Source of the DNA: DASVDK01 sp036562265 [NCBI: Thermodesulfobacteriota bacterium]
Lineage (GTDB): Bacteria > DASVDK01
Direction of reading: 5' to 3'
Length of the DNA stretch: 16,544 nucleotides
NCBI GenBank assembly: GCA_036562265.1
Contig: DATCKS010000282.1
Location: forward strand, 1-16,544
The stretch's first letter is position 1, and each line of letters starts with the position of its first letter. Position numbers and translations under genes: made by a program. The notes under the pieces are model-generated. The model ran no database searches. It saw nothing but the letters and a program-made list of their open reading frames with translations, and was not told the origin of the DNA. Positions 1,638 to 6,974 of the stretch are shown piece by piece.

Positions 1638-2003
1638 CTAGCTCGCCGCCGTCTCCTCCGCTGCGCGCTTCTCCTTGATCCGCGCCGCCTTGCCGGCGAG
1701 GGCGCGCAGGTAGTAGAGCTTCGAGCGCCGGACGCGGCCCTCCTGCACCCGCTCGATCTTCTCGATCCACGGGGTGTGCAGGAGGAACGTCCGCTCGACC
1801 CCGACGCCGTACGAGATCTTGCGCACGCGGAACGAGGAGCGGATCCCGGCGTTCTTCCGGGCGATCACGACGCCCTCGAAGACCTGCACGCGGTCCTTCT
1901 CGCCCTCGCGGATCTTCACGTGGACGCGGACGGTGTCGCCCACCCGGAACTCCGGGATGTCCTGCCGCATCCGCCCCTTCTCGAGACGGTCGATGACGTT
2001 CAT
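1638..2003 (-). CDS. rplS: Large ribosomal subunit protein bL19
   Basis: The product is 121 aa, the usual L19 length. L19 sits at the interface of the 30S and 50S subunits and helps form an intersubunit bridge. Recognisable family features are the N-terminal segment with [16 protein letters not shown] (residues 19-34), [23 protein letters not shown] (42-64, basic RNA-binding surface), and the C-terminal signature RRSKLYYLR (92-100). The basic tail is typical. The ATG overlaps the trmD stop by 4 nt (ATGA), which suggests translational coupling, and GAGGGAGA lies 9-16 nt upstream. It is the last ribosome-related gene of the operon; an ATPase gene follows after 23 bp. Confidence 0.97.
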
Positions 2004-2770
2004 GGCCTCTGGTCTCCCTCGTCAGCTTCGGGCGCGCCCCCGGCTTCCCGCTCGGCCGCCAGGGCCGCGAGGAACGCGCGATCCTCGTCGCTCAGCTCCG
2101 CCCGGGCGAGCAGGTCGGGGCGCCGCTCGGCCGTGAGCCTGAGCGCCTCGCGCCGCCGCCACCGGGCGATCTCCGCGTGGTGCCCGGACAGGAGCACCTC
2201 GGGCACCGAAAGCCCCCGGAACTCGCGGGGGCGAGTGTACTGCGGGTACTCGAGCAACCCGCCCGCGAAGCTCTCCTCCACCGCCGAGGCCGGCGCCCCG
2301 AGCGCGCCCGGCAGGAGTCGAACCACCGCGTCGATCACCACCATGGCCGGCAGTTCGCCGCCCGTCAGGACGTAGTCGCCGATCGAGATCTCCTCGTCGA
2401 CGAACCGCCGGACGCGCGCGTCGATCCCTTCGTACCGGCCGCAGATCAGGACGAGCCGCGGCTCCCTCGCGAGCCGCCGGGCGTCCGCCTGCTCGAACCG
2501 CACGCCGGCGGGCGACATGAGGAGCGTCCGGGCCGGTCCCTCGCCCTTGAGCGCCTCGATCGCCGCCACGACCGGCTCGACCTTCATGACCATCCCCGCG
2601 CCGCCGCCGTAGGGCGTGTCGTCGGTCACCCTGTGCCGATCGGTCGCCCAGTCGCGCAGGTTGTGCACCCTGAGGTCGACGAGCCCGCGCTCCCGCGCCA
2701 GCCCCACGATCGAGTGGTCGAGCGGCCCCCGGAACATCTCGGGGAAGAGCGTCAGGACGTCGATGCGAAT
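2000..2770 (-). CDS. trmD: tRNA (guanine-37-N1)-methyltransferase TrmD, probable ATT start
   Basis: TrmD methylates N1 of G37 in tRNAs using S-adenosylmethionine and so prevents +1 frameshifting. It is a SPOUT-family enzyme with a trefoil knot. Seen here: [17 protein letters not shown] (residues 50-66), the knot segment ICGRYEGID (109-117) and [16 protein letters not shown] (128-143), and [10 protein letters not shown] and [13 protein letters not shown] in the C-terminal domain. The first ATG (2737) would cut off the first beta strand. The sequence before it reads [10 protein letters not shown] in frame, matching the universal TrmD N-terminus, and the expected initiator position is ATT (2768-2770), 8 nt after GGGAAGGGGG. 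From there the protein is 256 aa, against 255 in E. coli. The residue aligned with the catalytic Asp169 of E. coli is Glu (166). The stop overlaps the rplS start by 4 nt, and rimM ends 26 bp upstream. Confidence 0.95.
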
Positions 2771-2785
2771 ACGGTCCGCCCCCTT
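2768..2785 (-). promoter_or_regulatory. trmD ribosome binding site and ATT initiation codon
   Basis: Read on the minus strand, GGGAAGGGGG is followed by 8 nt and then ATT (2770-2768). No ATG, GTG or TTG occurs in this frame between the rimM stop and the internal ATG at 2737. The purine tract decides the start because it is correctly spaced for the ATT and 40 nt away from the ATG. Confidence 0.6.
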
Positions 2786-2796
2786 CCCGCCGGGCC

Positions 2797-3465
2797 CTAC
2801 GACTCGAAGAGCCCCTCGATCGGCCGGATCACGATCCGGCCCGCCGCCGGGTCGATGGCGACGACCACCTCGTCCACCGCCGGCACGAGGTGCTCGCGGT
2901 CGCCGTCGCGCAGGACGTAGACGTCGTGCGTAGGCCCGCTCAGGATCTCCGTCACCCGTCCGACCGGCTCGCCCTCCTCGGTGACCGCCTCGAGACCGAC
3001 CACCTCGAACCAGTAGTACTCCCCTTCGGGGAGCTTCGGCAGGTCCTCGGCCGCGATCAGCACCCGGGCCCCCACGAGCGGCTCGGCGTCGTTGGCGCTC
3101 GCCACCCCCTCGAACCGCACGAGGAGCGCCCCCTTGTGCCGCCGGACGCCGACGACTTTCGCCTCGCGCGCCCCCCCGCGCCCCTCGAGCAGGAGGCGGA
3201 CGCCGGGCCGTACGGCCTCGCTGTCGGGGTTGTCGGGGCGCAGCTTCAGATCGCCGCGGAGCCCGTGTATCCCGACGAGACGCCCGAGCCGGACCCGCCG
3301 GGTCTCGGACCGGTCGGGCGGCGGCTCGCCGCGACTCGCCCGGTCCGCCGGCGGCGCGGCCGGCGGGACGCCGCCTACGCCGCGCCGGCCAGCTTCTTGA
3401 GCACGCCGGCCTTCTTCAGGTACCGGCCGACGGTCTCGGTCGGCTGGGCGCCCTTCTTGAGCCAC
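2797..3465 (-). CDS. rimM: Ribosome maturation factor RimM, start overlapping rpsP
   Basis: RimM binds S19 and helps the 3' domain of 16S rRNA mature in the 30S subunit. The core starts with [17 protein letters not shown] (about residue 58 onward), the conserved N-terminal beta-barrel segment. It continues through the [15 protein letters not shown] and [15 protein letters not shown] segments, and the PRC-barrel domain contains [25 protein letters not shown]. It ends with the usual [10 protein letters not shown]. The core is about 165 aa, the normal family length. However, no ATG, GTG, TTG, CTG or ATN codon lies in frame between the rpsP stop and the core. The only in-frame start is GTG at 3465, 91 nt inside rpsP, with AAGGTG 5 nt upstream. 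That gives an Arg/Pro-rich extension of about 57 residues. Either the overlap is real or the start is non-standard. trmD follows after 26 bp. Confidence 0.9.
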
Positions 3466-3635
3466 TCGATCACCTTCGCCTCGTCGACCCGGAAGGCCGG
3501 GGGCGACTGCACGGGATCGTAGGTGCCGACCTGCTCGATGAACCGGCCGTCGCGCGGATTGACGCTGTCGCTGACCACGACGCGGTAGTAGGGACGCTTG
3601 CGCGCACCCCAGCGCGCGAGCCTGATCTTGACCAT
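3375..3635 (-). CDS. rpsP: Small ribosomal subunit protein bS16
   Basis: The 86-aa product has the standard S16 N-terminus ([20 protein letters not shown]), followed by [19 protein letters not shown] and a helical [20 protein letters not shown] tail. S16 binds helices of the 5' and central domains of 16S rRNA and is important for 30S assembly. The ATG is preceded by a strong AAAGGAGT seven nt upstream. The gene starts 19 bp after the ffh stop and is followed directly by rimM. A KH-domain (khpA) gene, which sits between rpsP and rimM in many bacteria, is absent. The 3' third of rpsP probably also carries the beginning of the rimM reading frame in another phase. Confidence 0.97.
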
Positions 3636-3654: not shown

Positions 3655-4992
3655 TTACGCGAATGGGAGGCGGCCGCTGCGCCGGAGCGCCTTCATGCCG
3701 CCCCGGCTGAGCCGCATCATCATCTTCCGGGCCTCGAGGTACCGCTTGACGAGCCGGTTCACCTCTTCGACCGTCGTGCCGCTGCCGCGCGCGATCCGCT
3801 TGCGCCGGCTGCCGTTCAGGATGGCGTGGTTGCGCCGCTCCTGGGGCGTCATCGAGTTGATGATGGCCTCGACCCGGACGAGTTCCCGCTCGTCCACGCG
3901 GATCCCCTGCCCCTTGAGCCTGTCGAAGCCGGGGATCATGCCGAGGAGCGACTCGATGGGGCCCATCTTCCTCACCTGCTGGAGCTGTTCCCTGAAGTCC
4001 TCCAGCGTGAACTGGTTCTTGCGGAGCTTGCGCTCGAGCTCGCGCGCCTGCTCGGCTTCGACCGCCTGCTGGGCCTTCTCGATGAGCGTGAGGACGTCGC
4101 CCATCCCGAGGATCCGCGACGCCATCCGCTCCGGGTGGAAGACCTCGAGCGCGTCGACCTTCTCGCCGACGCCGACGAGCTTGAGCGGCCGCCCCGTGAC
4201 CGCCCGGACCGACAGGGCCGCGCCGCCGCGCGCGTCGCCGTCGAGCTTGGTCATCACGACGCCGTCGAAGCCGAGCCCCTCGTTGAACGCCTTGGCCACC
4301 GTGACGGCGTCCTGCCCCGTCATGGCGTCCACCACGAGGAGCACCTCGCGCGGCTGGATGGCGGCCTTGAGGTCGCGCAGCTCCTGCATGAGCCGCTCGT
4401 CGACGTGGAGGCGTCCCGCCGTGTCGAGGAGCAGCGTGTCGCAGGCCGCCGCGTCGGCCGCCCTGAGCGCCTGCCGGGCCGCCTCGACCGGGTTCGCCGA
4501 CGGGTCGGTGTCGAAGCACGGGACGTCGACCTGCCGGGCGAGCGTCTTGAGCTGCTCGATGGCGGCGGGCCGGTAGACGTCCACCGACGCGAGGTAGGGA
4601 CGGCGCCCCTGCTTCTCCCGAAGGAACCTGGCGAGCTTCGCCGCCGTCGTCGTCTTGCCCGAGCCCTGCAGCCCGACCAGCATCACCGGCACCGGCGGCT
4701 TGCCGGCGAGCGCGAGACCCGACGCCTGGCCGCCCAGGAGCTCGACCATCTCGTCGTGGACGATCTTGATGACCTGCTGGGCCGGCGTGAGGCTCTCGAG
4801 CACGTCGCGGCCGGTGGCCTTCTCGGTGACGCGGGCGATGAAGTCCTTCACCACCCGGAAGTTCACGTCGGCCTCGAGGAGGGCCATCCGGACGTCGCGC
4901 AGCGCGACCTGCACGTCCTCCGGGGTGAGCGCCCCGCGGCTGCGGAGCCGCTTGAAGGCGGCGGAGAGCTTCTCGGTCAACGAATCGAACAT
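3655..4992 (-). CDS. ffh: Signal recognition particle GTPase Ffh (SRP54)
   Basis: Ffh binds 4.5S/SRP RNA and signal sequences of nascent membrane proteins and docks with FtsY. All domains are present in 445 aa. The N-domain four-helix bundle spans about 1-90. The G domain has GLQGSGKT (107-114), the [11 protein letters not shown] insertion region (138-148), DTAGR (190-194) and [10 protein letters not shown] (248-257). The M domain spans about 320-440, with Met-rich hydrophobic helices and the SRP-RNA-binding segment with [20 protein letters not shown] near the C-terminus. The ATG at 4992 is preceded by GAGG and begins the usual [10 protein letters not shown]. It is the first gene of the ffh-rpsP-rimM-trmD-rplS operon, with a 94-nt leader carrying a GC-rich hairpin. 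Confidence 0.98.
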
Positions 4993-5249: not shown

Positions 5250-6233
5250 CTAGATGTCCCCCCGATCCACCAGCTCGAGGAACACGGCCAGGAGCTCCTC
5301 GTCCCACTGACCGCTCTTCCGCTCGCGGCGCATGAGGGCGGCCGCGTCCTCGCGCGGCATCGCCTTGCGGTAGGCTCGCGTGCTGGTCATGGCGTCCCAG
5401 CTGTCGCAGATGGCGATGATGCGCGCCCCCACCGGGATGTCGCGGCCCGCGAGGCTGTCCGGGTGGCCGCAGCCGTCGAAGCGCTCGTGGTGGTGGCGGA
5501 TCATGGGGGTGATGGCGGCCGCCGCGCGCAGCGGCGTGCAGATGCGCGCGCCGATCACGGAGTGCGACCGGACGATGGCGTACTCCACGTCGGTCAGGGG
5601 GCCCGGCTTGTCGAGGATGGCGTCGGCCATCCCGATCTTGCCGATGTCGTGCAGGAGCCCGGCGTAGCGGAGGTTGAGCCGGTCGGCCTGGCTGAAGTCG
5701 AGCGCGCGGGCGAGCCGCACCGCGTAGTGCGCGACGCGCTCCGAGTGGCCGCGCGTGTACACGTGCTTGGCCTCGACGGCGGCGGCGAGGGAGAAGATGA
5801 CGCTTTCCTGGGTGTCCTTCGCGTCGAAGCGCGCCTTGAGCTTCAGGAGCGAGCGGACCTTCGAGACGAGTTCCCCCCGGTGATACGGCTTCGAGAGGAA
5901 GCCGTCGGCGCCGGCGTCGGTCGCGCGGATCCGGTCCTCCGGATCCGACATGGCCGTCACGAGGACGATGGGAACCCAGGACGCCTCCTCGAGCGCCTTG
6001 AGCTGCTCGGTCACCTGGTACCCGTTGAGCCGCGGCATCATCACGTCCATGACGATGAGATCGGGCTCTTCGGCCACGAACTTCTCGATCGCCTCGACGC
6101 CGTCGCGGGCGCGGACGACCACGTAGCCTTCGGGTTTCAGGTACTGCTCGAGGATCTCGAGGTTGAACGGATGGTCGTCGACGATGAGGATCTTTTGCGG
6201 CCTGGGGGCCTCGAGCCTGGCCACGATGCTCAT
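5250..6233 (-). CDS. Response regulator with HD-GYP domain (RpfG-like, c-di-GMP phosphodiesterase family)
   Basis: The 327-aa product has a receiver domain at about 12-130: acidic pair D19-D20, phospho-acceptor D63 in LIVMDVMMPRLNGYQ, T93 and K115 in SKPY. An HD-GYP domain follows from about 140. HD-GYP proteins hydrolyse cyclic di-GMP, so phosphorylation by a histidine kinase would set c-di-GMP levels. Metal-ligand positions are kept: H163, H195-D196 (HDIGKIG), H224, H248-H249 and D277. The GYP motif is altered: HHERFDGCGHPDSLAG instead of the usual HHERxDGSGYPxGLxG, so Tyr is His, Ser is Cys and Gly is Ser. The ATG at 6233 begins MSIVARLEAP before the receiver; an overlapping ATG at 6243 is out of frame. 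It lies 29 bp after rlpA on the same strand. No kinase gene is nearby. Activity is likely but not certain. Confidence 0.92.
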   Translation of the reverse strand: MSIVARLEAPRPQKILIVDDHPFNLEILEQYLKPEGYVVVRARDGVEAIEKFVAEEPDLIVMDVMMPRLNGYQVTEQLKALEEASWVPIVLVTAMSDPEDRIRATDAGADGFLSKPYHRGELVSKVRSLLKLKARFDAKDTQESVIFSLAAAVEAKHVYTRGHSERVAHYAVRLARALDFSQADRLNLRYAGLLHDIGKIGMADAILDKPGPLTDVEYAIVRSHSVIGARICTPLRAAAAITPMIRHHHERFDGCGHPDSLAGRDIPVGARIIAICDSWDAMTSTRAYRKAMPREDAAALMRRERKSGQWDEELLAVFLELVDRGDI

Positions 6234-6262
6234 GGGCCCCCATGATAACAAGGGCTTGCGCG

Positions 6263-6877
6263 TCAGTCTATTCTCTCGACGCGTACGCGTGCAGTGCCCG
6301 CCTGGACAATGCCCAACCGCGCCGCGGCGGCGCGGGAGAGGTCGATGACCCGACCGCGGACGAAGGGTCCCCGGTCGTTGATGCGGACGACGACCGTCCG
6401 GCCGGTGGCGAGATCGGTAACGCGCACCCGAGTCCCGAAGGGGTAGGTTCGATGGGCGGCGGTCATCGCGTTCATGTCGAAGATCTCGCCGCTCGCGGTG
6501 CGGCGGCCGTGGTGGGCGGCGCCGTACCAGGACGCGATCCCCACCTCGGCCCGCGTGCCGGCAGCCCCAGGGCGGGACGGCGCCGACGCGCACCCGGCCG
6601 CGAGGGCGGCGATCAGCGTGGCGGCGGCGAGCGCGGCCGCCCGGGCGAGTCGCCTCCCGGCGGCGACGTGCGCCGGCGCACGCCGGAGAGCCCCTGCGCC
6701 GCCGGCCCGAGGAGGAGCCGCCGCGGCCCCCTGCCGCCCGGGCGCGCGATCCGGACGACGACCAGGAGCAGCGCTGCCAGGACGAGCAGGCCCACGACCA
6801 GGCGCCGGGCGCGCCCGTGCGGCATCGCCCCGACTCCGACCGGCAACCACCCGCATGCTCGGCGAGACTCGCACCAC
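6263..6877 (-). CDS. rlpA: RlpA-like lipoprotein (double-psi beta-barrel), N-terminus uncertain
   Basis: RlpA proteins are outer-membrane lipoproteins; some are lytic transglycosylases for denuded glycan strands at the septum. The C-terminal 95 residues are a clear RlpA barrel: [23 protein letters not shown], then [40 protein letters not shown] and AAAARLGI. No SPOR domain follows. A lipoprotein signal ([22 protein letters not shown], written here as its key parts: RR, Ala/Leu core, lipobox LAAGC) has its Cys at 6592-6590. No ATG, GTG or TTG lies in this frame shortly before that signal. The best in-frame start is GTG 6877, behind GAGGGAGG, but it adds about 70 Arg/Pro/Ala-rich residues that do not look coded. 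One extra base near the GGG at 6656-6658 would join the frame to GTG 6681 and give a normal 31-residue signal. The HD-GYP gene follows after 29 bp. Confidence 0.8.
6613..6825 (-). CDS. Small membrane protein, or the true N-terminal frame of rlpA
   Basis: An ATG at 6825 opens a 70-residue frame beginning [20 protein letters not shown], with one hydrophobic helix at about 8-25 between basic flanks, and then an Arg/Pro/Gly-rich tail. Almost all third codon positions are G or C, as in real genes here. It overlaps the 5' part of the rlpA frame in another phase and ends inside the lipoprotein signal region. GGAG lies about 8 nt upstream of the ATG. It may be a separate small protein translated ahead of rlpA. 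Alternatively it may be part of rlpA if one base is missing in this sequence. I do not recognise the family. Confidence 0.35.
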
Positions 6878-6945
6878 GATCCCCTCCCTCTTCCGCACGC
6901 CGGCCGGACGCGCCGCGCGTGGGCGCCCCCGCCGGGCGGCCCGCA

Positions 6946-6974
6946 TTGCCACCCCGCGGGCGTTGCCCTATCCT
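6946..6974 (+). promoter_or_regulatory. Probable promoter of the holB-metG-tatD-hpt cluster
   Basis: TTGCCA (6946-6951), 17 bp, then TATCCT (6969-6974): five and four of six consensus matches. Transcription would start near 6981, only about 7 nt before the holB ATG. That would leave the AAGGGA (6975-6980) outside or at the very edge of the mRNA. Confidence 0.4.

Follow-up and report, generated by a model that had tools for sequence, protein, structure and literature searches.

The window (the whole stretch of DNA analysed, 16,544 nucleotides) has a GC content of 73% and carries on its minus strand the genes ffh, rpsP, rimM, trmD and rplS, in this order (Table 1). The genes ffh, rpsP, trmD and rplS match their family models over the full length, and gross assembly damage is therefore unlikely there. 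The membership of the trmD product in the TrmD family is supported by two full-length matches above the curated cut-offs (220 for NF000648 and 195 for TIGR00088). Near ffh, positions 5250-6967 of the minus strand encode two proteins that we take, by eye, for a response regulator (HD-GYP-like domain) and an RlpA-like protein.

Table 1. Features of the trmD locus and its neighbouring genes (positions of the window).
Feature	Position	Strand	Evidence and remarks
ffh, ATG start	3655..4992	-	TIGR00959
rpsP (S16), ATG start	3375..3635	-	TIGR00002
rimM, as open reading frame from GTG 3465; conserved core from ~3309	2797..3465	-	TIGR02273, 130.9 bits from residue 58
GGGAAGGGGG, Shine-Dalgarno sequence	2779..2788	-	8 nt before ATT; duplex with 16S 3' end -10.8 kcal/mol
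ATT, proposed trmD start codon	2768..2770	-	TrmD residue 1 in alignments; 215 upstream codons free of canonical starts
ATG, first canonical codon in the trmD frame; internal, minus 11 residues	2735..2737	-	without Shine-Dalgarno sequence
trmD, tRNA (guanosine(37)-N1)-methyltransferase, 256 aa from ATT	2000..2770	-	NF000648 321 bits, TIGR00088 301 bits
rplS (L19), ATG start; overlaps the trmD stop	1638..2003	-	TIGR01024

The preliminary description had proposed that trmD begins at a rare ATT codon, and the anatomy that it gave for the site was recovered in all its parts. The ATT is present, 26 nt away from the rimM stop codon TAG (2799-2797), and the Shine-Dalgarno (SD) sequence lies at the spacing claimed. 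The open frame of trmD extends from 3415 to 2000 and, as had been stated, no ATG, GTG or TTG occurs in it upstream of the ATT. The only NTG or ATN codon before the ATT is CTG 3013; those after the ATT are ATC 2764, CTG 2755 and ATG 2737. Translation from this last codon gives 245 aa, so that the loss of 11 residues announced for an automatic annotation is also correct.

The claim that the first conserved strand of TrmD is encoded ahead of ATG 2737 is supported by the alignments of homologues. When the translation starts at the ATT, the alignment to the NCBIfam TrmD models begins at residue 2 of the protein and position 2 of the profile, and 26 of the 27 TrmD sequences of solved structure that were listed align from query residue 1-4 (the exception, 7kff, aligns from residue 76). 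The residues 4-9 (DVLTLF) are conserved in kind among 352 surveyed homologues, with D4 found in 291 sequences, T or S at position 7 in 352 and F9 in 345; this conservation indicates that ATG 2737 is internal. Initiation at ATG 2737, the first canonical codon of the frame, would produce a TrmD deprived of its first 11 residues and thus of this strand, from a codon where the calculated SD pairing is +0.7 kcal/mol (i.e. no SD), and we consider it extremely improbable.

The SD pairing at the ATT site was the strongest among the window sites tested by duplex formation with the 16S 3' end, the other values being -8.5 kcal/mol for rplS, -8.2 for rpsP, -7.0 for the rimM GTG 3465 and -5.9 for ffh; a further row of this comparison, AAA 1613, does not fall on a start codon and was left out. 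The value of the ATT site is reached at 1.9% of minus-strand positions and 0.9% of plus-strand positions, and by only 3.4% of 323 canonical trmD starts. The trmD site unites three features of a non-canonical start: the lack of a usable ATG, GTG or TTG, a codon placed at residue 1 of the family and a strong, well-spaced SD sequence. In the predicted fold of positions 2735-2810, the SD stretch is paired with a pyrimidine stretch inside trmD; the SD sequence may thus be hidden around the start, and we count this prediction against initiation at the ATT. The fold of the start region has no extra stability compared with shuffled sequences (z +1.39), and no Rfam family matched the window at gathering scores. 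Control by RNA structure was dropped on these two results. Overall, the translation of trmD from AUU 2770-2768 is the best reading of the sequence and is probable in this organism, with roughly two chances in three.

TrmD could also be produced by another route, by a frameshift or a readthrough fusion with RimM, or from another non-canonical codon nearby. The trmD frame indeed extends without a stop from 3415 across the conserved region of rimM, a gene whose own start is unclear: GTG 3465 lies inside rpsP, it is followed by no in-frame ATG, GTG or TTG down to 3240, and 52 codons separate it from the anchor. In the 150 rimM loci with an upstream start, the distance from start to anchor has a 95th percentile of 11.6 and a maximum of 50 codons; 58 other rimM loci have no upstream start, and many of them have one just past the anchor (by eye). 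However, the spacing of the SD sequence suits the ATT, and such a route seems very improbable to us.

The ATT codon is rare in this DNA: it accounts for 15 of 33,084 trinucleotides, a chance of about 1 in 2,200. In the eight genes counted, with the proposed start left out, isoleucine is encoded by 90 ATC, one ATT and one ATA. This scarcity argues that the codon is either special or was recently an ATG, and by itself it does not separate these two possibilities. In an alternative reading, a base error, the codon would in truth be ATG or some other canonical start, and the ATT a mistake of the consensus or of sequencing, or a damaged allele of one strain. The ATT is a single substitution away from ATG, whereas ffh, rpsP, trmD and rplS are intact and, if an error rate of 1e-4 per base is assumed, the 309 trmD genes of the survey would contain about 0.1 damaged start codons.

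The relatives of the window bear directly on this alternative. Among the matches listed and the phylum samples, the closest TrmD sequences are 62-68% identical (68% in G084) and none is closer. The best full-length Ffh match is at 64% (G115) and IMG/VR provided two loci at 49%. None of the seven genomes of the G441 phylum matched at E 1e-75, the G463 phylum is represented by one genome, and G014 and G009 belong to one phylum, so that their samples of relatives largely overlap. In a tree obtained from TrmD, RplS, RpsP, RimM and Ffh pieces, the window groups with L090, L095 and L162 with a support of 89, a placement that is tentative (FastTree, long branches); two earlier trees, built with fewer rows, placed the window in no supported clade. 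The phylum sample that provided these three loci also includes Geothermobacter (G007). L087, with a TrmD identity of 68%, branches apart from the window in the trees. The alignment of trmD starts gave a divided answer: the ATT does fall where the TrmD proteins of relatives begin, but the nearest rows of the tree (L090, L095 and L162, TrmD identity 58-62%) carry GTG, GTG and ATG, respectively, at this codon, in agreement with a base error. Since no TrmD relative above 68% identity was found, the base error stays a live rival, although we judge it rather unlikely.

The start codons of trmD were surveyed at loci L001-L329, where the 322 matches correspond to 309 distinct junctions, one of which lacks an aligned N-terminus; one more locus is truncated at its own edge. 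A canonical start is found at the aligned codon in 199 of 308 junctions and within 9 codons upstream in 106, i.e. in 305 of 308 in total (205 ATG, 62 TTG and 38 GTG); the sample was defined by similarity to the window and by a few phyla, and these counts are not frequencies for all bacteria. In no other surveyed trmD is ATT the sole start, which is a further point for a base error in the window. Three of the 308 have no canonical start by the survey rule, namely L302 (G628), L226 (G463) and L316 (G566). L316 was rejected as a non-canonical case, as an ATG at -21 is preceded by GGAGG (by eye). In L226, a CTG is located at the aligned trmD start, 44 nt after the rimM stop; this CTG is a candidate start, with a GTG at -25 as the alternative. 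In L302, the codon immediately upstream of the anchor is CTG and a TGA is present at -4, so that no canonical start precedes the conserved strand.

Three Nitrospinota loci (L045, L101 and L110) also have an ATT at the trmD anchor, together with an ATG located 9 codons upstream, inside rimM. We tentatively take this ATG for the likelier trmD start, and the Nitrospinota ATT was set aside as a second case of an ATT start. In this phylum, a TTG three codons upstream of the anchor and overlapping rimM is present in 51 of the 62 distinct junctions, most of which start trmD there. The ATG at -9 occurs in 4 of the 11 junctions without this TTG and in 1 of the 51 junctions with it. The three loci belong to a Nitrospinota lineage that does not have the majority TTG.

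The relatives of G628 were then read at the same junction. Of 60 genomes searched, 56 contain a match; the best 30 of these 56 loci (L330-L359) were read and one was cut by a contig edge, leaving 29 genomes. In this set, the codon before the trmD anchor is CTG in 26 genomes. No ATG, GTG or TTG occurs between the preceding in-frame stop and the CTG in 19 of the 26; in five others a canonical codon is found only 16-31 codons upstream, and in the last two it lies within 3 codons (L353, ATG at -2; L359, TTG at -3). Seven of the 26 have a canonical codon within 15 codons downstream, mostly an internal ATG at +11. An in-frame TGA four codons before the anchor (-4) is present in 14 of the 29 genomes, all of them among the 26 with CTG, and excludes in-frame entry from upstream there, which also weighs against the production of TrmD by readthrough in the window. 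The exceptions L347, L349 and L356 have CCG, without canonical start within 20 codons upstream. By eye, a GGAGG-like sequence precedes an ACG at -2 in these three loci.

In the rimM frame, the C and T of the CTG occupy the second and third positions of a codon, which is GCT in 21 genomes, ACT in three, TCT in one and CCT in one (GCC in the three exceptions). At fourfold-degenerate sites of the same rimM and trmD genes, T is found at 9.3%, so that 2.9 of 29 would be expected where 26 are seen, a difference to which no simple binomial applies as the genomes are related. The trmD genes contain 36 fourfold sites at which the amino acid is conserved, and at none of them is a single base shared by 26 genomes. 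As the rimM residue varies while the fourfold third base stays T, we conclude that the CTG has been maintained on account of trmD. Nineteen of the 20 more distant genomes taken from the same draw were readable, and their anchor is ATG, GTG or TTG in 19 of 19. The SD pairing of the CTG clade is ordinary, with a median of -6.05 kcal/mol for 22 distinct junctions, compared with -6.4 for trmD starting with TTG, -6.5 with GTG and -5.35 with ATG. From this pattern of codon conservation, the CTG is well supported as a conserved trmD start in the G628 clade. It is a firmer product of the analysis than the ATT start and makes this class of explanation credible: non-canonical trmD starts are probably real elsewhere, which argues against a base error in the window.

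Several known systems can be compared with this locus. The pcnB gene of E. coli shares the AUU start with the proposed trmD, and its expression is reportedly limited by the inefficiency of this codon. Unlike trmD, it is not known to lie in a ribosomal-protein operon. Also in E. coli, the drop in translation over rimM and trmD is not known to stem from an ATT start. The E. coli operon rpsP-rimM-trmD-rplS has the same gene order as the window, and at an even mRNA depth ribosomes are ten-fold less dense on most of rimM and trmD than on rpsP and rplS (PMC4378010). The preliminary description had considered ATT starts as known for very few genes; in the parts of the literature consulted, this holds for the experimentally studied cases (PMC5472188), but more have now been reported (PMC13009471, PMC13068326). 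The start of infC, encoding IF3, is ATT in E. coli, ATC in Streptomyces and AUA in S. aureus (PMC5472188, PMC13009471). Like the proposed trmD, infC is a gene of the translation apparatus with a non-canonical ATN start; it differs in being autoregulated by its own product, whereas trmD would only respond to IF3.

The sigR gene of Streptomyces starts with GTC, is repressed by IF3 as described from experiments, has an extensive ribosome-binding site and keeps its rare start in 32 of 34 species (PMC5472188). It resembles trmD by this ribosome-binding site, by the rare start and by the balance with a neighbouring gene; the codon and the gene are different, and the effect of IF3 is experimental for sigR only (PMC5472188). 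In Staphylococcus aureus, cvfC1 (AUU) and ccpN (AUA) combine a rare start with an extended SD motif, as is found for native non-canonical starts of this species and at trmD. These are other genes, for which codon conservation and ribosome footprints have been shown in S. aureus; reporters with AUU and AUA starts are described there as reaching about 10% of the yield obtained with AUG when the medium is poor, and ccpN attains up to 30% when it is rich (PMC13009471). No report of a rare trmD start was found in literature searches that covered titles and the openings of abstracts, with few subscription journals, and a search on rare starts in general returned no paper.

The mechanism that we propose builds on the anatomy of the site, on the lack of another start and on the non-canonical trmD codon kept by selection in another clade. 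Provided that the base call is correct and that the AUU is used, the strong and well-placed SD sequence would bring the 30S subunit to the AUU site, where the pairing of the initiator tRNA with AUU would have a mismatch at the third base. Because of this mismatch, initiation would be inefficient, and TrmD would be produced at a fraction of the rate of the ribosomal proteins encoded on either side of it in the same transcript. Weak initiation would in this way keep TrmD low between two ribosomal-protein genes. By analogy with infC, pcnB and sigR, trmD may be under IF3-sensitive control: IF3 represses non-canonical starts (PMC5472188) and would discriminate against the AUU, so that TrmD could rise when IF3 activity falls.

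On the evidence of the conserved CTG clade and of the candidate CTG in G463, trmD seems to be a gene where non-canonical starts occur. A broader and speculative proposal, which we put forward only tentatively, is that trmD could be a recurrent site of such starts (CUG fixed in one lineage, maybe CUG in G463, and AUU here), acting as a translational dial in rpsP-rimM-trmD-rplS. The m1G37 modification would then depend on IF3, and a loosened start fidelity would raise the level of the enzyme protecting the reading frame. A weak start, if real, offers a simple explanation for little TrmD being made from an mRNA that has to supply much ribosomal protein, and the link between IF3 and the m1G37 tRNA modification becomes testable. 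As its codon is kept across species, the CTG clade is better suited for such tests. Gene callers that accept ATG, GTG and TTG alone would shorten trmD in the window and place its start wrongly in the CTG clade, giving a wrong N-terminus to an essential enzyme.

Neighbouring genes were used as controls at distinct loci, a start being accepted when a canonical codon is located at the start, at most 15 codons upstream or at most 3 codons downstream; rimM was left out because of its variable N-terminus. A canonical start was lacking in 0 of 195 rpsP, 0 of 202 rplS, 0 of 42 ffh and 29 of 360 trmD, the latter consisting of 27 sequences of the CTG clade (24 CTG and 3 CCG), L226 and L316. ATG is used by 118 of 195 rpsP (with 51 TTG and 26 GTG), 220 of 360 trmD and 197 of 202 rplS. 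Weak starts are thus not peculiar to trmD: the use of ATG is no higher in rpsP, and rplS alone starts almost always with ATG. The argument from expression for a weak trmD start is therefore not favoured by the rpsP control, which lowered our confidence in the ATT start very slightly. The apparent TTG start of rpsP, in 51 of 195 distinct loci, is more frequent than expected for a ribosomal protein.
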